DNA of 64,000 nt from Paracoccus saliphilus (GTDB lineage: Bacteria; Pseudomonadota; Alphaproteobacteria; Rhodobacterales; Rhodobacteraceae): NCBI RefSeq assembly GCF_028553805.1, contig NZ_CP067140.1, forward strand, positions 1,736,001 through 1,800,000. The letters are read 5' to 3'. A program made the translations under genes and the position numbers. Under the pieces are notes generated by a model. That model searched no databases, was not told the origin of the DNA, and saw nothing but the letters and a program-made list of their open reading frames with translations. This document shows, one piece after another, positions 5,941 through 36,275 of this stretch (position 1 is the first letter of the stretch; every line of letters starts with the position of its first letter).

Positions 5941-8900
5941 TTGCGCTTCGACCGCCTTCGTCTCAACGGCTTCAAGAGCTTCGTGGATCCGACCGACCTG
6001 GTCATCCGCGAGGGGCTGACCGGTGTCGTCGGTCCCAATGGCTGCGGCAAGTCTAACCTGCTCGAGGCGATGCGTTGGGTCATGGGCGAGAACCGCCCCA
6101 CCGCCATGCGGGGCGACGGGATGGAAGACGTGATCTTTGCCGGCACTTCGCGCCGCTCGGCCAAGGGACATGCCGAGGTCACGCTGACCATGGACAACCG
6201 TGACCGGCTGGCGCCTGCCGGTTTCAATGACGAGGATCATTTCGACATCGTGCGCCGGATCACCCGCGACGCCGGTTCTGCCTACAAGATCGCGGGCAAG
6301 GATGTGCGGGCGCGCGACGTGCAGATGCTGTTCGCAGATGCTTCGACGGGGGCGCATTCCCCGGCGCTTGTGCGGCAGGGGCAGATCAGCGAATTGATCA
6401 ATGCCAAGCCGAAAAGCCGCCGCCGGATCCTTGAGGAGGCGGCGGGGATCTCGGGGCTTTATCAACGCCGGCACGAGGCCGAGTTGAAGCTGAACGGGGC
6501 CGAGAACAACCTGACCCGCGTGGACGATACGCTGGATCAGCTTTCCACGCAGGCGGCGAGCCTTGCCCGCCAGGCGCGGGCGGCGGCAAAATATCGCGAG
6601 ATCGGGGCGGCCTTGCGGCTGGCCGAGGGCTTGCTGCTCTATCGCCGTTGGTCCGAGGCCGAAGAGGCGCGGCAGGCGGCGACCGAGGCTTTGACGGCGG
6701 CAGTCAGGGCGGCGGCTGAGGCCGAGGCGACGTCGCGCTTGGCGGCCGAGCGACGCGAGGCGGCGGATGAGGCGTTGCCCCCCCTGCGCGAGGAGGAGCA
6801 GGTGGCGGCGGCGATCCTGTCACGCCTGACCGTGGAGCGCGAGGCGCTGGACGAGGCCGAGGCGCGAGCCGCCGAGCAGGTTTCGGCTCTGGTCGCCCGG
6901 ATCGCGCAGCTTGACCGGGATATCGAACGCGAGGAAGCGCTGAACCGCGATGCGGGCGAAGTGGTCGAGCGGCTCGATTGGGAGCGGACCGAGCTAGAGA
7001 AATCCGGGCAGGGCCATGACGCACGCGTGGATGCAGCCGCCGCTGCTGCGGATGAGGCTGCCGAGGCACTGCGCGAAGTTGAAGGGCGGTTGGCCGAACT
7101 GACCGACGAGGCTGCGCGGCTTGCCGCCCGCCATCAATCCGCAGAGCGGCTGGCCTCGGATCTGCGTGACATGTTGGAGCGCGCGGAACGCGCCGCCGCC
7201 GAGGCCGACGAAAACGCCAAGCGCGCTGCCGAGGTCGGGAGTGCTGCCGAGGAGGCATTGCGGGACGCTGAAGAGGCGCAAGAGGCCGCGCGCGACCGGG
7301 CCGAGGCCGCCGAGGAAGCTTTGGGCGGCGCGGAAGCCGCCCGCACCGAAGCCGAAGCCGCCGAAGTCTCTGCCCGCGCCGCCCGATCCGAGGCCGAGGG
7401 CGAGGCGGGAGCATTGGCCGCAGAGATGGCGGCGCTCAAGCGGCTGGTCGAGCGAGGGCAGTCGGATGGCAAGGCGATCCTCGACCGGGTGCAGGTGGCC
7501 AAGGGATACGAGGTCGCCTTCGGTGCCGCCCTGGGCGACGATTTGCGGGCCGGGCTGGCCGAGGACGGGGAAACCGGGTGGCATGGCCTGCCCGGTTGGG
7601 ATTCGCCACAGCCCTTGCCCGAAGGGGCGCGGGCGCTGGCGCAGCATGTCACCGGACCCGAGGCCTTGGCGCGACGGCTCTCGCAGGTCGGGTTGATCAC
7701 GGATGCGGCAACCGGGGCCGAGCTGCAGGCAGACTTGTTGCCCGGTCAGCGGTTGGTGACCCTCGAGGGCGATCTGTTCCGCTGGGACGGGATGCGGGTG
7801 ATGGCTGGCGAGGCGTCTTCCTCGGCCGCGCTGCATCTGCAGAAAGTAAATCAACTCAACGAGATCAGCGCACAAGTTGAGGAAGCACAAGAACGTGCGG
7901 ATGCGGCGGTTGACGCCCATGACGAGGCCAAGGCGCGCCTGAACGACGCCTCGATGCACGAGAAATCCGCCCGCGACGGACGGCGCGAGGCAGAGCGGCT
8001 TCTCTCGGATGCGGCGCGGGCCTCGACCCGGGCGGAATCCGATCTGGCGATGGCGAATAGCCGGGTGGAATCGGCGCGGGGCGAGGTGACCCGGCACCGG
8101 GCGGATGCCTCGGATGCGCAGACCCGGCTGACTCAGGCCGAACGGGCGCTGGCCGAACTGCCGGATCGCGGCGATGCTGCGCAGGCCGTCGAGAATGCCC
8201 GGACAGGGGTCGAGGCGGCGCGGATCGCGACCATGACCCGTCGCACCGCGCTGGATGAATTGCGTCGCGAAGGGAATGCCCGGCAGAAGCGTTTGCAGGA
8301 AATCGCCAAGGAGGAATCGGGCTGGAAACTGCGCCTGCAACAGGCGGGCACGCGGGCCTCGGAATTGGCGAGCCGCCGCGAAGCCGCCGCCGATGAACTG
8401 GAACAGGCCGAGGAGCAACCCGCTGTTCTGGCTGAGAAACGTGACAGCCTCAGCGAACGTGAGGCGCAGGCCGAGGAACGGCTGACGCGTGCGCGCGAGG
8501 CTTTGTCGGTCGCCGATGATGCGGCCCGTAGCGCCGCCCATGCAGAGCGTGATGCCGAGCGCATTGCTTCGGAGGCGCGTGAAACCCGGGCCGCACGCGA
8601 GGCGCGGGCCGAGGCGGCGCGGGACAGCGAGGCGGTTGCTCGGGCACGGATTTTCGAGGAAACCGAGTCGACGCCGCAGGCGCTGCGCGACAGCTTGGAG
8701 GATGCCGATACCGAGACGCCCGCCGCTGCGCTGGAGGATCGGATCGCGCGGTTGCGGACGCAGCGGGATGCCCTGGGCGCGGTCAATCTGCGCGCCGACG
8801 AGGACAAGCGCGAACTGGAAGAAGAGCGCGACCAACTGGCCGGCGAAAAGGCGGATTTGGAAGAGGCGATCCGCAAGCTGCGCGCCGGGATCGGCAGTCT

Positions 8901-9393
8901 CAACCGCGAAGGGCGCGAGCGGCTGTTGACGGCATTCGACACGGTGAACGGCAATTTCTCGACGCTTTTCAGAACCTTGTTCGGGGGCGGCGAGGCGCGG
9001 CTGGTGCTGGTCGAATCCGATGATCCGCTGGAGGCCGGGCTGGAGATCATGTGCCAGCCGCCGGGCAAGAAACTGTCCACGCTCAGCCTGCTATCCGGTG
9101 GCGAGCAGACCCTGACCGCCCTGGCGCTGATCTTCGCGGTCTTCCTGGCCAACCCCGCACCGATCTGCGTGCTGGACGAGGTGGACGCGCCGCTGGATGA
9201 CGCCAATGTCAACCGTTTCTGCGATCTGCTGGACGAGATGACCCAGCGCACCGACACGCGCTTCTTGATCATCACCCACCATGCGGTGACCATGGGGCGG
9301 ATGGATCGTTTGTTCGGCGTGACAATGGTCGAGCAGGGGGTCAGCCAGCTGGTCAGCGTCGATCTGAAACGCGCCGAAGCGCTGGTCGCCTGA
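5941..9393 (+). CDS. smc: Chromosome segregation protein SMC
   Basis: A cytoplasmic ATPase that with ScpA/ScpB compacts and segregates the chromosome. It has 1150 residues, usual for the family. The Walker A GPNGCGKS is at residues 31-38, the ABC signature LLSGGEQTL is at about 1052 and the Walker B with D-loop DEVDAPLDDANV is at about 1078. Between them are two long Ala/Glu/Arg-rich coiled coils separated by a hinge at roughly residues 505-640. The start is taken as TTG because it is preceded at 7 nt by GGAAAGGG and gives the canonical N-terminus LRFDRLRLNGFKSF. No ATG fits; an upstream open frame to 5866 is not SMC-like. Confidence 0.96.
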   Translation: MRFDRLRLNGFKSFVDPTDLVIREGLTGVVGPNGCGKSNLLEAMRWVMGENRPTAMRGDGMEDVIFAGTSRRSAKGHAEVTLTMDNRDRLAPAGFNDEDHFDIVRRITRDAGSAYKIAGKDVRARDVQMLFADASTGAHSPALVRQGQISELINAKPKSRRRILEEAAGISGLYQRRHEAELKLNGAENNLTRVDDTLDQLSTQAASLARQARAAAKYREIGAALRLAEGLLLYRRWSEAEEARQAATEALTAAVRAAAEAEATSRLAAERREAADEALPPLREEEQVAAAILSRLTVEREALDEAEARAAEQVSALVARIAQLDRDIEREEALNRDAGEVVERLDWERTELEKSGQGHDARVDAAAAAADEAAEALREVEGRLAELTDEAARLAARHQSAERLASDLRDMLERAERAAAEADENAKRAAEVGSAAEEALRDAEEAQEAARDRAEAAEEALGGAEAARTEAEAAEVSARAARSEAEGEAGALAAEMAALKRLVERGQSDGKAILDRVQVAKGYEVAFGAALGDDLRAGLAEDGETGWHGLPGWDSPQPLPEGARALAQHVTGPEALARRLSQVGLITDAATGAELQADLLPGQRLVTLEGDLFRWDGMRVMAGEASSSAALHLQKVNQLNEISAQVEEAQERADAAVDAHDEAKARLNDASMHEKSARDGRREAERLLSDAARASTRAESDLAMANSRVESARGEVTRHRADASDAQTRLTQAERALAELPDRGDAAQAVENARTGVEAARIATMTRRTALDELRREGNARQKRLQEIAKEESGWKLRLQQAGTRASELASRREAAADELEQAEEQPAVLAEKRDSLSEREAQAEERLTRAREALSVADDAARSAAHAERDAERIASEARETRAAREARAEAARDSEAVARARIFEETESTPQALRDSLEDADTETPAAALEDRIARLRTQRDALGAVNLRADEDKRELEEERDQLAGEKADLEEAIRKLRAGIGSLNREGRERLLTAFDTVNGNFSTLFRTLFGGGEARLVLVESDDPLEAGLEIMCQPPGKKLSTLSLLSGGEQTLTALALIFAVFLANPAPICVLDEVDAPLDDANVNRFCDLLDEMTQRTDTRFLIITHHAVTMGRMDRLFGVTMVEQGVSQLVSVDLKRAEALVA

Positions 9394-9398
9394 GGCCC

Positions 9399-9532
9399 GC
9401 GCAACGGCACCGTGCGTTGCATCTGTCGCCATGCGCAACAGGGACGCGATTTCATCCAGCAAATGCTGGGAATCCGGCTGCACAACCCGTACACCGCGCG
9501 TACACAGGATGTACACAACCTGTACACCGCTT
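9399..9532 (+). repeat. Composite 3' element, copy A (hairpin - dyad - four phased GTACAC boxes)
   Basis: Begins 6 bp after the smc stop and reads in the same direction. In order: GCAACG at 9401-9406 pairing with CGTTGC at 9415-9420; the dyad CCAGCAAATGCTGG at 9456-9469; 19 nt; then GTACAC at 9489, 9500, 9511 and 9522, an exact 11-bp period. Related copies lie at 18771-18905 (minus) and 36003-36142 (plus). All three follow a co-oriented gene. I do not recognise this as a named element; function unknown. Confidence 0.8.
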
Positions 9533-9651
9533 GCGTGCGTCCAGCGGCAAAATTTGGGCATGGGTTGAAAATCACCGGCAGGCAGGTCCGGGCGTTTCAT
9601 TCGCTTTCAATCCGCATTAGGTTGGGCCCTGAACACTGCATGAGGAGACGG

Positions 9652-18605: not shown

Positions 18606-18676
18606 ATTGCGTCCCGCGATGGCCGGGGGTTTCACACCCCCGGACCCCCGTGGGATATTTCCATGAAGAAGAAGGG
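18606..18676 (+). repeat. Dispersed hairpin/GATATTT/GAAGAAG element (copy 3)
   Basis: Begins 48 bp after the LysR stop, in the same direction. TTGCGTCCCGCGATGG leads into a 7-bp stem CCGGGGG (18623-18629) / CCCCCGG (18637-18643), then ACCCCCGTGGGATATTT and CCATGAAGAAGAAGG. The TTGCGTCCCGCGA lead is shared with the copy at 27759 and, with one change, with the copy at 44045. Confidence 0.75.
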
Positions 18677-18770
18677 AGGGGCGATCTCTGGCGGGTGAAA
18701 CCGCTCTGGCGCGGCCACACCACCGCAGCCTGCACGGAAATGTGAATGCAGGCGGGAGCGTACGCTGCCT

Positions 18771-18905
18771 GTGTACGCCCTGTGTACAGGCTGTGTACGG
18801 GTTGTGTACGCGCTGTGCGGCCAAAAACCCGGCAATTGTTGGTCAAGCGCGTTGTCTTGCGTTGCGCAACACCAAAGCGCAACGCGCGCTGGTGTTGCGG
18901 GGCCG
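18771..18905 (-). repeat. Composite 3' element, copy C (phased GTACAC boxes, dyad, GC repeats)
   Basis: Lies immediately 3' of edd and reads in the edd direction. On the plus strand GTGTAC occurs at 18771, 18782, 18793 and 18804 (11-bp period), then 19 nt, then the dyad-like CCGGCAATTGTTGG at 18829-18842, then GCGCAAC/GTTGCGC repeats up to the gene end. Layout and spacing are the same as in copies A (9399) and B (36003), although the dyad sequence differs. Confidence 0.75.
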
Positions 18906-18907
18906 CG

Positions 18908-20710
18908 TCAGACCACCACGCCGGCCCCTTCGGTCGCGGGACCGGCGACAGCGCGGAAGGCGGCGAACATCTCGCGCCCCATGCCCTCGCTGCTCGGCGC
19001 GGGGTCGAAGGCGGCGGGCTTGCGATCATCGAAATCCTCGGCAAGGCAGTCGATCGTGCCCATGGTCGCATCCATCCGGATCATGTCGCCGTCATGCACC
19101 CGCGCAAGCGGCCCGCCGACCGAAGCCTCGGGCGAAATATGGATCGCTGCGGGCACCTTGCCCGACGCCCCCGACATCCGCCCATCGGTCACCAGAGCGA
19201 CCTTGAGTCCCCGATCCTGCAGCACCGCGAGGGTCGGGGTCAGGGAATGCAGCTCGGGCATGCCATTCGCGCGAGGTCCTTGAAAACGCACGACAACAAT
19301 GGTGTCCTCGGTGAATTCTCCAGCCCTGAATGCGGCTTTCACCTGTTCCTGATCGCTGAACACGCGGGCTTTCGCCTCGATCACGTGACGTTCTTCGGCC
19401 ACCGCGCTGATCTTGATGACACCCCGGCCGAGATTGCCTTCAAGCTGTTTCAGGCCGCCGGTTTTTGCGAAAGGATCATGGGCCGGGCGAAGGATCTTGT
19501 CGTTCAGCGATTCCCTCGCGCCAGCTTCCCACCGGACGCGCTCGCCTTCCAGCTTGGGCTCGGCGGTGTAGCCGTCCAGCCCGGTGCCGTTGATCGTCTT
19601 GACATCGGGATGCAACAGCCCGGCATCCAGCAATTGCCCGATCATGTAACCGATTCCGCCCGCCGCGTGGAAATGGTTTACATCGGCCAGCCCGTTCGGA
19701 TAGACCCGCGCCATCAGCGGCACGGCCTCGGAGATGTCGTGGAAGTCCTCGATATCCAGCCGCACGCCCGCAGCCCGAGCCATCGCCGGTAAGTGCATGA
19801 CAAGATTGGTGGATCCCCCTGTCGCCATGAGCCCGACCATGCCGTTGACGAAGGCGCGTTCGTCCAGAACATCGCCCGCAGGCAGGTAGTCATTACCCAA
19901 GCGAGTGATCGCGGCGGCGCGTTCGACCCCGGCCACGGTCAGCGCCTCGCGCAGCGGTGTGTTGGGATTGACGAAGCTCGATCCCGGCAGGTGCAAGCCC
20001 ATGAATTCCATCAGCATCTGGTTGCTGTTGGCGGTGCCGTAGAAGGTGCAGGTGCCGGGCCCGTGATACGAGGCCATTTCGGCTGCCATCAACTCATCGC
20101 GCCCGATCTCACCCGTGGCGAATTGCTGGCGGACCTTTGACTTCTCGTCATTCGGCAGGCCCGAGGGCATTGGACCTGCGGGAATGAACACGGCGGGAAT
20201 ATGGCCGAAAGTCGCCGCGCCGATCACCAGCCCCGGCACGATCTTGTCGCAAACGCCCATGTAAAGCGCCGCGTCGAAACAATCATGCGACAGGGCCACC
20301 CCGGCCGCCAGCGCGATCACGTCGCGCGAGAAAAGTGACAGCTCCATCCCGGCGCGGCCCTGTGTGACGCCGTCGCACATGGCGGGCACGCCGCCCGCGA
20401 CCTGCACCGTGGCGCCAGCCGCATGGCCCGCGCGGCGGATAATGTCGGGATAACGCTCATAGGGCTGATGCGCCGAGAGCATGTCATTATAGGCAGTGAC
20501 GATGCCGATATTCGGCTTGCGCGTCGTCGCCATGTCTTCCTTGTCATCCATCGCGGCATAGGCATGTGCCTGGTTGCCGCAGGAAAGATGCGCGCGGCGG
20601 GGACCGTCCTCTGCCGCCTTGGCGATCTTTTTCAGATATTTGCCGCGGCTGTCTTGCGAGCGTTCGCGGATCCGGTCGGTGACGCGGTCGATGGTGGCGT
20701 GAAGGGTCAT
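18908..20710 (-). CDS. edd: 6-phosphogluconate dehydratase (Entner-Doudoroff)
   Basis: Dehydrates 6-phosphogluconate to KDPG, the first specific step of the Entner-Doudoroff pathway, using an iron-sulfur cluster in the cytoplasm. The 600-residue length fits Edd rather than IlvD. Landmarks are [63 protein letters not shown] and the C-terminal [23 protein letters not shown] precedes the ATG at 20710; the frame stays open to 20761 but that part runs through the operator. No eda is adjacent. The LacI-type operator at 20747-20760 implies sugar-responsive repression. Confidence 0.95.
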
Positions 20711-35032: not shown

Positions 35033-35953
35033 ATGACGGCATTGTCGAGGGCAAAAGCATGTTTGGGGGCGATTGCCGTTGCGCTGACCGCAGCACTGCC
35101 CGTTGCCGCACAAGATGCCCTCGGGGTGGGTGCGGATGCGCCGATCATTGCCGCTCCGGCCGATCCTGGCCGTTCCGCGCCCTCGGTGACGAGTCCATAC
35201 AGCGCCCCTGAGATCGGCGGGTTCAACAGCTTTGCCGCCAGTGACATGGCGCCACCGTCGCTGGACAATTTCACACCGCCCACACTGCCCGTGGTGGTCG
35301 AGCTGTTCACTTCGCAGGGCTGTTCCTCCTGTCCGCCTGCCGATGCGATGCTGGAAACGCTGGCGGATGATCCGGGAATCCTGCCCTTGTCGCTGCATGT
35401 CGATTACTGGGATTACCTGGGATGGGCGGACAGTTTCGCCAACCCGCAATTTACCGCCAGGCAAGAGGCTTATGCCCGCGCCGCAGGCGAAAGATCGGTC
35501 TATACCCCGCAACTCATCATCGATGGGCAGGACACGGCCGTGGCGCCGGGACCGGTCCAGTTGATGGGGCTGATCGATGCGCATCGCGCCTCGCCCGCGG
35601 TGGTGAGCCTGAATCGCGAGCAGACGGCTGAAGGCGACCGGATAGAGATCGTGCCGCTGTCAGAACTTGCGATGCCGATCGACGTGATCCTGGTCCGCTA
35701 TGCCCCGCAGCGCACGGTCGAGATCAAGGCCGGGGAAAATCGTGGCCGTGAAATGACTTATGTCAATGTCGTGCTGTCGCTTGAAAAGCTGGCCGATTGG
35801 GATGGCCAGGCCCCGTTGCGCCTGACCGTGCGGCAGGAGGGGCTGCCCGATGACAGTTTCCCTGCCGATACCCGCCACGTGATCCTGGTGCAGGAGGATC
35901 TGAGCGGCAAGGAAATGCCCGGACCGATCCTTGCCGCGATCGGGCTCGATTGA
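35033..35953 (+). CDS. Secreted DUF1223 (thioredoxin-fold) protein
   Basis: A 306-residue protein with a signal peptide (about 1-26, ending AAQ). The DUF1223 core starts at about residue 88 with VVELFTSQGCSSCPPADAML, where Cys97 and Cys100 form a CxxC; HVDYWDYLGWADSFANPQFTARQ and VYTPQLIIDGQ are family blocks. A periplasmic redox role is possible but unproved. The start at 35033 follows AAGGGGAAG; upstream in-frame ATGs lack a signal peptide. The composite element copy B follows. Confidence 0.88.
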   Translation: MTALSRAKACLGAIAVALTAALPVAAQDALGVGADAPIIAAPADPGRSAPSVTSPYSAPEIGGFNSFAASDMAPPSLDNFTPPTLPVVVELFTSQGCSSCPPADAMLETLADDPGILPLSLHVDYWDYLGWADSFANPQFTARQEAYARAAGERSVYTPQLIIDGQDTAVAPGPVQLMGLIDAHRASPAVVSLNREQTAEGDRIEIVPLSELAMPIDVILVRYAPQRTVEIKAGENRGREMTYVNVVLSLEKLADWDGQAPLRLTVRQEGLPDDSFPADTRHVILVQEDLSGKEMPGPILAAIGLD

Positions 35954-36002: not shown

Positions 36003-36142
36003 GCAACGCGCGCACGGCAACAGCACCGTGCGTTGCATCTGACTTCCCGCGCAACAGATGCCGGATTCACCCAGCAAATGCTGGGAATCCGGCTGTGACA
36101 TCCGTACACGGCATGTGCACAGGACGTACACAGCCCGTACAC
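36003..36142 (+). repeat. Composite 3' element, copy B (hairpin - dyad - four phased GTACAC boxes)
   Basis: Lies 50 bp after the DUF1223 gene, same direction. A GCAACG...CGCACGG / CCGTGCGTTGC hairpin region at 36003-36035, the dyad CCAGCAAATGCTGG at 36071-36084 (identical to copy A), 19 nt, then GTACAC at 36104, GTGCAC at 36115, GTACAC at 36126 and 36137, again every 11 bp. Confidence 0.8.
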
Positions 36143-36275
36143 AGGCGGCGAGCGTTGCGCGACCGGCGATCAGCTTTTCTTTCGTAAACTGCAGGTTTGG
36201 AATCAGGCCACCTGATGAGCTTGACCGGATATTTCGAGCGGCGGACAATATCGGGCGGGTGGATCAGGAGGAGAG

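Follow-up and report, generated by a model that had tools for sequence, protein, structure and literature searches.

Dispersed arrays of GTRCAC hexads at 11-bp spacing in Paracoccus saliphilus and other Rhodobacteraceae, with a BrnA-domain protein as their candidate binder

The window, a stretch of 64,000 nucleotides of the Paracoccus saliphilus genome (contig NZ_CP067140.1, positions 1,736,001 to 1,800,000), carries three copies of a composite element, each located downstream of a co-oriented gene (Table 1). All three copies described in a sequence-only reading of this DNA were recovered, with 94, 89 and 79 bits in the family model R1, whose source sequences include these copies or sequences like them. 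The neighbouring genes smc, edd and a DUF1223 gene were confirmed by TIGR02168, TIGR01196 and PF06764. Copy 2 is flanked by convergent genes, copies 1 and 3 by tandem genes. All copies had been described as starting within about 50 bp of the stop codon; the measured distances are 7, 10 and 64 nt for copies 1, 2 and 3. Four boxes in 11-bp phase are found in each copy as described; they are not all GTACAC, and because copy 3 combines three GTACAC boxes with one GTGCAC box, the hexad is given as GTRCAC in the following. GTACAC occurs 13 times in the window compared to 4.8 ± 2.1 expected, and a count of at least 13 was reached in none of 100 shuffles.

Table 1. Features of the three element copies, their upstream genes and the BrnA-domain gene (positions in the window, except for the last row).
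Feature	Position	Strand	Evidence
smc, co-oriented gene upstream of copy 1	5941..9393	+	TIGR02168
Copy 1, composite element 3′ of smc	9400..9546	+	nhmmer, 27-copy alignment; R1 89.3 bits
Copy 1, 5′-end inverted repeat GCAAC...GTTGC	9401..9420	+	read from sequence; conserved among copies
Copy 1, dyad CCAGCAAATGCTGG, DNA palindrome without covariation	9456..9469	+	sequence; covariation tests
Copy 1, degenerate phased box CTGCAC	9478..9483	+	read from sequence; unit counts
Copy 1, four GTACAC boxes 11 bp apart, putative BrnA-like protein sites	9489..9527	+	box count
Copy 2, composite element 3′ of edd	18756..18898	-	nhmmer; R1 79.1 bits
Copy 2, four GTACAC boxes 11 bp apart	18771..18809	-	box count
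Copy 2, imperfect dyad CCAACAATTGCCGG	18829..18842	-	read from sequence
edd, co-oriented gene upstream of copy 2	18908..20710	-	TIGR01196
DUF1223 gene, co-oriented, upstream of copy 3	35063..35953	+	PF06764
Copy 3, composite element 3′ of DUF1223 gene	36017..36162	+	nhmmer; R1 94.2 bits
Copy 3, dyad CCAGCAAATGCTGG	36071..36084	+	read from sequence
Copy 3, boxes GTACAC, GTGCAC, GTACAC, GTACAC, 11 bp apart	36104..36142	+	sequence; box count
BrnA-domain (PF14384) protein gene of P. saliphilus	L250:2371-2898; contig C1 about 675,770-676,300	-	Pfam

The element, initially regarded as a three-copy repeat, is present in at least 70 near-full-length copies in the P. saliphilus genome (nhmmer with a 27-copy alignment, 71 rows minus one opposite-strand shadow), all of the located ones on the 4.38-Mb contig, while the 243-kb contig is not proven empty. 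A blastn search yielded at least 40 element places, all scored candidates, and the sequence-only model R1 (104 positions) 65 elements. Four exact boxes in register occur in 56 of the 70 copies. When one mismatch is allowed, 29 copies have five boxes and two have six, the extra phased box usually being CTGCAC and preceding the first box. The repeat unit of the arrays reads GTRCACMRNNY.

The proposed preference for co-oriented 3′ ends is real in P. saliphilus: for 51 of the 70 copies the first upstream gene is co-oriented, with the element at a median of 20 nt past the stop codon and 39 of the 51 within 35 nt. According to codon-score gene calls made in this analysis, 32 copies lie between convergent genes, 19 in tandem sense, 12 in tandem antisense and 7 in divergent context. 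Pairwise identity over all pairs of the 70 copies has a median of 78% (5-95% range 72-84%) and a maximum of 90%, and the copies are old, without a recent burst. In eight comparisons, orthologous copies in distant species were no more alike than paralogues, so that the histories of single copies cannot be traced far; exceptions are the parC site shared with genome G018 (0.93) and one serA site (rank 3 of 70).

The element is not restricted to this strain, and arrays occur in other Paracoccus species as well as in other Rhodobacteraceae. R1 matches (E ≤ 0.01) were obtained in 30 of 61 Paracoccus genomes, with 0 to 65 per genome, and exact three-box arrays in 20 of the 61. G018, at about 90% identity in smc the nearest relative identified, lacks the BrnA-like gene introduced below and contains 7 elements versus 65 in P. 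saliphilus by R1. Of nine comparable sites in 400 kb, chosen partly around known G018 copies, two are kept, two are remnants and five are absent in G018; one kept site is 22 bp shorter and has two boxes fewer, and at the smc site a dyad remnant is left and the boxes are gone.

Outside Paracoccus, arrays occur bare, with lineage-specific spacers. The four-box pattern was found in 12 of 295 genomes of the family, and named records include Pontivivens, Tateyamaria, Yoonia, Palleronia, Planktomarina, Sulfitobacter, Nioella, Leisingera and others. In total, at least 120 four-box stretches were collected, of which 38 belong to Paracoccus, 65 to other Rhodobacteraceae and 17 to other phyla or classes, the latter being left out of the context counts. 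For the 53 of the 65 arrays with both flanks called, the context (30 tandem, 13 convergent, 10 divergent) resembles that of background intergenic gaps (140 tandem, 43 convergent, 60 divergent), and no orientation preference is seen, 17 arrays opposing the direction of their tandem neighbours and 13 sharing it. At four loci from four genera (L065, L114, L126, L132), an array is located between a MAPEG gene and lpd.

A candidate for the binding protein was obtained from the genes adjoining the arrays. A Pfam scan of ten proteins revealed a BrnA domain (PF14384) next to one P. saliphilus array, and the domain recurred in 2 of 92 proteins encoded next to arrays outside Paracoccus. A phmmer search with the P. 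saliphilus protein against 2582 called proteins gave four matches including itself, from four lineages (P. saliphilus, P. albicereus, Rhodobacteraceae 2-1044 and a Rhodobacteraceae MAG), each with an array directly upstream of the start; as the protein set is enriched for array neighbourhoods, this result alone is a lead. PF14384 was above the cut-off in all five scanned proteins. The 75 listed database homologues carry PF14384 under names such as "BrnA antitoxin family protein" or "DUF4415 family", and the organisms named among them are chiefly Paracoccus. The ribbon-helix-helix fold is predicted from the Pfam match, from a pattern of one strand and two helices and from what is known of BrnA, because the AlphaFold monomer is poor (pLDDT 68, pTM 0.34) and Foldseek with this low-confidence model returned no match of note. 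A PDB sequence search gave one chance-level match (E 0.11).

The protein shares its domain with the BrnA antitoxins of type II toxin-antitoxin systems. In the BrnT-BrnA system, brnT is paired with brnA, whereas at 23 loci of the BrnA-like gene the 160 nt upstream contain the array and no called gene of the same strand; this check covers called genes, among which small genes can be missed, and 3 of the 23 loci have no called neighbour within 600 nt. The neighbours differ among the 23 loci, and no called brnT-like gene abuts. The tens of dispersed arrays per genome are a further difference from BrnA antitoxins.

The gene and the elements co-occur. A BrnA-like gene (E < 1e-25) is present in 24 of 61 Paracoccus genomes, in two of them with a broken frame (G353, G369), and was found in 17 of 20 genomes with at least seven elements compared to 7 of 41 with two or fewer (Fisher p = 4e-7, with the seven-element cut set after the counts were seen). 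The form with the strand R-x-T-x-R occurs in 16 of the 20 element-rich and in none of the 41 element-poor genomes (p = 2e-11); these p values, like the one given below for the family, overstate the significance because species are not independent. All seven element-poor genomes with the gene (G013, G020, G063, G343, G347, G350, G359) lack the second strand arginine. Exceptions are G006 (9 elements), G018 (7) and G339 (30, genome 84% complete), which have elements and no gene, and G015, in which 37 elements are accompanied by the unusual strand QHISIRLD and the promoter shows no clear array. A split by exact three-box arrays is weaker (gene in 14 of the 20 genomes that have such an array and in 10 of the 41 that lack one), and G005 and G023 have the gene and 14 and 31 elements, respectively, yet no exact three-box array. 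In the family sample, 93 of 295 genomes have a BrnA-like match at 1e-8. These include 9 of the 12 genomes with four-box arrays (p = 0.002; the match in G317 has internal stops), the other three being G179, G280 and G289.

The promoter of the BrnA-like gene itself frequently carries an array. At 39 of 54 loci an 11-bp array was detected in the 260 bp upstream of the gene at p ≤ 0.01 (200 single-base shuffles), and at 15 it was absent at this threshold. The hexads were typed from adjacent pairs in register in promoters with a countable array, and the hexad follows the residues of the predicted DNA-reading strand. All 20 promoters of R-x-T-x-R proteins read GTRCA(C/G/T), all seven of proteins that have lost the second arginine (A, S, C or G) read ATGCAC, all six with the first arginine changed to lysine (K-x-T-x-any) read GTMTGG, and both with T changed to N read GTCTTC. 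The residues that change with the hexad are strand positions i, i+2 and i+4. The 19 of 54 loci without a countable array were left out of these counts. Among them, the GTRCAC-like units of G001, G005 and G016 are eroded, G063 repeats TTCATGCA-like units, G359 combines an ATGCAC-type strand with the absence of an array, the array of G087 is mixed, and G265, G245, G184 and G306 show no clear array.

This correspondence was read after the fact, except for two checks on dispersed arrays. For the first, genomes with ATGCAC promoter arrays were listed beforehand (G020, G343, G124, G072, G272, G131, G301, G087). Seven of the eight proved to contain dispersed ATGCAC triple arrays, compared to none of 26 other genomes, which comprise four relatives without the second arginine (TTCATGCA-like or no clear arrays), six genomes with GTRCAC, six with other boxes and ten without a strong gene match. 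Positive genomes contain 7 to 38 triples, promoter arrays and overlaps counted, and the reversed-pattern control gave 0 in all genomes. The one miss among the eight is G087, with its mixed array. G359, whose strand is identical to that of G020, has no triple either; if the relatives G013, G063, G350 and G359 are counted as predicted, the result is 7 of 12 versus 0 of 22. For the second, 400 kb each of G215 and G089 were sampled, where GTMTGG triples occur at lag 11 only (5 and 4, respectively, overlaps and promoter counted) and GTRCAC or ATGCAC triples are missing. The dispersed arrays thus match the array in the promoter of the gene, and the DNA-reading residues and the array sequence have most likely changed together across the Rhodobacteraceae.

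An oligomerising DNA-binding protein had been suggested on the grounds that 11-bp phasing places the boxes on one face of the helix, and co-occurrence, promoter arrays and the strand-hexad correlation support this suggestion with the BrnA-like protein as candidate. With a probability of roughly 0.8, the element is a dispersed DNA-binding platform whose GTRCAC core is bound by this self-regulating ribbon-helix-helix protein. A run of hexads one helical turn apart would be its binding array, with one dimer per hexad reading the DNA via the alternating strand residues R-x-T-x-R, and neighbouring dimers on one helix face would bind cooperatively. By binding the array in its own promoter, the protein would also regulate its own synthesis. 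The 5′ GCAAC..GTTGC repeat, the dyad and the downstream modules of the Paracoccus element may be bound by other proteins.

Regarding the role of the protein, a sequence-specific nucleoid-associated function is tentatively favoured over that of a classical promoter regulator, at somewhat less than even odds: it might mark the ends of transcription units and intergenic DNA and thereby help to organise the chromosome or block read-through. The 3′-end placement in P. saliphilus suits a role at the ends of transcription units, and the lack of a placement preference in other genera suits chromosome organisation. Wide regulation is conceivable as well, but an ordinary regulon, in which the BrnA-like protein acts as a classical transcription factor of the flanking genes, is unlikely. 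Arrays do lie between divergent genes for 7 of 70 copies in P. saliphilus and 10 of 53 in other genera, but the P. saliphilus copies prefer 3′ ends and the neighbours examined are mixed housekeeping genes in which no theme was seen.

A miniature transposon of the MITE or REP type without a host function is improbable. The full-length homology of 70 dispersed copies requires a copying step in the past, the alternative downstream modules suggest a mosaic, and matches to a Y1 transposase (PF01797) are present in P. saliphilus and in the copy-rich genome G015. Against this, the pairwise identities (median 0.78, maximum 0.90) leave no room for the near-identical recent copies expected of a MITE, the box type tracks a gene acting in trans, and the same MAPEG-lpd gap is occupied in four genera. 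The element resembles REP/BIME sequences in that numerous palindromic copies lie between genes, close to 3′ ends, and differs from them in its core, which is a direct-repeat array. A REP/RAYT system was rejected, as PF01797 was found in only 5 of 61 genomes (G000, G008, G015, G021, G349) and is missing from six copy-rich ones (G014, G019, G023, G339, G348, G357), though present in G000 and G015. A phage origin was likewise discarded, since 11 IMG/VR stretches with similar arrays look unrelated (GC 0.28-0.56, other spacers). Integron attC sites end in the core GTTRRRY, which the end of the element consensus, GTTGCGC, does not fit.

A 3′-UTR or small-RNA element had been considered equally suitable; its hairpins would terminate or stabilise the transcript or function as an sRNA. 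The position of most copies shortly behind a co-oriented gene would fit, the dyad ends in a T run in some Paracoccus copies, and a terminator-like score was reached by 22 of 46 element-bearing 3′ ends versus 54 of 162 controls. However, no pair of the dyad shows a compensatory change in 27 P. saliphilus copies, and RNAalifold on 31 copies found covariation in 0 of 12 pairs. In 50 copies of other Paracoccus loci, dyad covariation was within the shuffle range (149 of 500 for the score, 392 of 500 for the pairs), one dyad pair is unpaired in 21 copies, and the cells-paired measure was not above shuffles (108 of 500), though higher than with slid partners. Rfam gave no match at the gathering score in the window and four further loci. 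Since the dyad lacks covariation and the bare arrays of other genera show no orientation preference, the element looks like a DNA element, and the probability of an RNA function is low, slightly below that of the transposon. OmpR/PhoB-type response regulators also bind direct repeats 11 bp apart, but this reading, favoured by spacing alone, is highly improbable because each hexad is nearly a palindrome, the 25 of 159 families listed for the 92 array neighbours include no response regulators, and the BrnA-like gene accounts for both phyletic pattern and box type.

The proposed BrnA-like system resembles the ribbon-helix-helix repressors RelB and Arc, which occupy tandem hexads, in having short sites that follow one another along one face at about one helical turn and in its signature of autoregulation; MetJ and ParR are further repressors of this type. 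Such repressors are known to act at one or a few operators, whereas the dispersed arrays or elements found here number from 7 to about 70 and their box changes by lineage. With MatP/matS, Noc/NBS and SlmA/SBS, in which one protein binds many intergenic chromosomal sites, it shares one candidate protein and many intergenic sites over the chromosome; it differs in the fold expected and in having no clear terminus avoidance, as copies lie near the GC-skew switch (largest gap 444 kb, p = 0.04). For RelB, base contacts by strand positions i, i+2 and i+4 are reported (PMC2812701), the positions with which specificity correlates here. Two matches to the PhaR site consensus YGCRNYGCR (PMC12542648) lie near the element ends and are at most a lead; such short matches are often expected by chance, and the spacing of the boxes differs.

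Among the open-access papers listed in literature searches, no description of the element or of dispersed BrnA-family arrays was found. The analysis links an unexplained repeat to a candidate pair of protein and DNA site whose code can be read, three strand positions tracking the hexad. It also suggests that proteins annotated as BrnA antitoxins can act without a partner as global binders of DNA. The lineages form a natural series for asking how a DNA-binding protein and dozens of sites shift specificity jointly. It is conceivable, though rather doubtful, that the Rhodobacteraceae possess an architectural system in which a toxin-free BrnA-type ribbon-helix-helix protein forms polymers on tens of arrays in 11-bp phase and serves to organise the nucleoid or to mark the ends of genes, with the protein, the autoregulatory and the dispersed arrays changing their code together. 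If so, it would represent a natural protein-DNA recognition code and a repeated genome-wide rewiring.

Several further observations were made at the arrays. G353 and G369, both with an interrupted BrnA-like frame, retain 9 and 7 elements, respectively, and in G369 a degraded promoter array lies beside the broken gene. Arrays next to an RluA-like gene at L101 and L103 (G343 and G020) consist of GTGCAT boxes, which correspond to ATGCAC in the opposite orientation and agree with what the altered protein strand of the BrnA-like protein in these genomes would predict. In P. saliphilus, the palindrome CCAGTAYGAAAAACATACTGG follows 16 of the 70 copies at a near-fixed distance (e.g., C1:65998, 208201 and 3569703) and has 17 matches in the sequence searched, one of them away from elements. 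Two other module types, TGACGYYACGTCA and ATTCCATTT...TTCCATAATGGAA, are located downstream of other copies. A dispersed motif, CTTCTTCTTC..AAATA, lies at about 18652-18675 (minus strand) in the window and often downstream of the element, behind 21 of the 70 copies, with a background of 12 matches in 334 kb.

In other genera, GTTAAC flanks the arrays (16 left and 18 right versus about one expected per side; L118, L152, L178, L180, L188, L216 and others). It stands exactly 31 bp before the first box in eight cases and 42 bp in three, forming a second composite architecture, for which the exact pattern at 31 bp has matches in 5 of 295 genomes. Bacteroidota (Prolixibacteraceae, Sphingobacterium, Prevotella) carry other GTACAC-like arrays in 11-bp phase, several of which have mirrored arms, at L128, L141, L144, L185, L193, L194, L200, L203, L205 and L220. 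At L345 (G004:C12:203794-203821), a three-box array apparently lies inside the coding sequence of smc.
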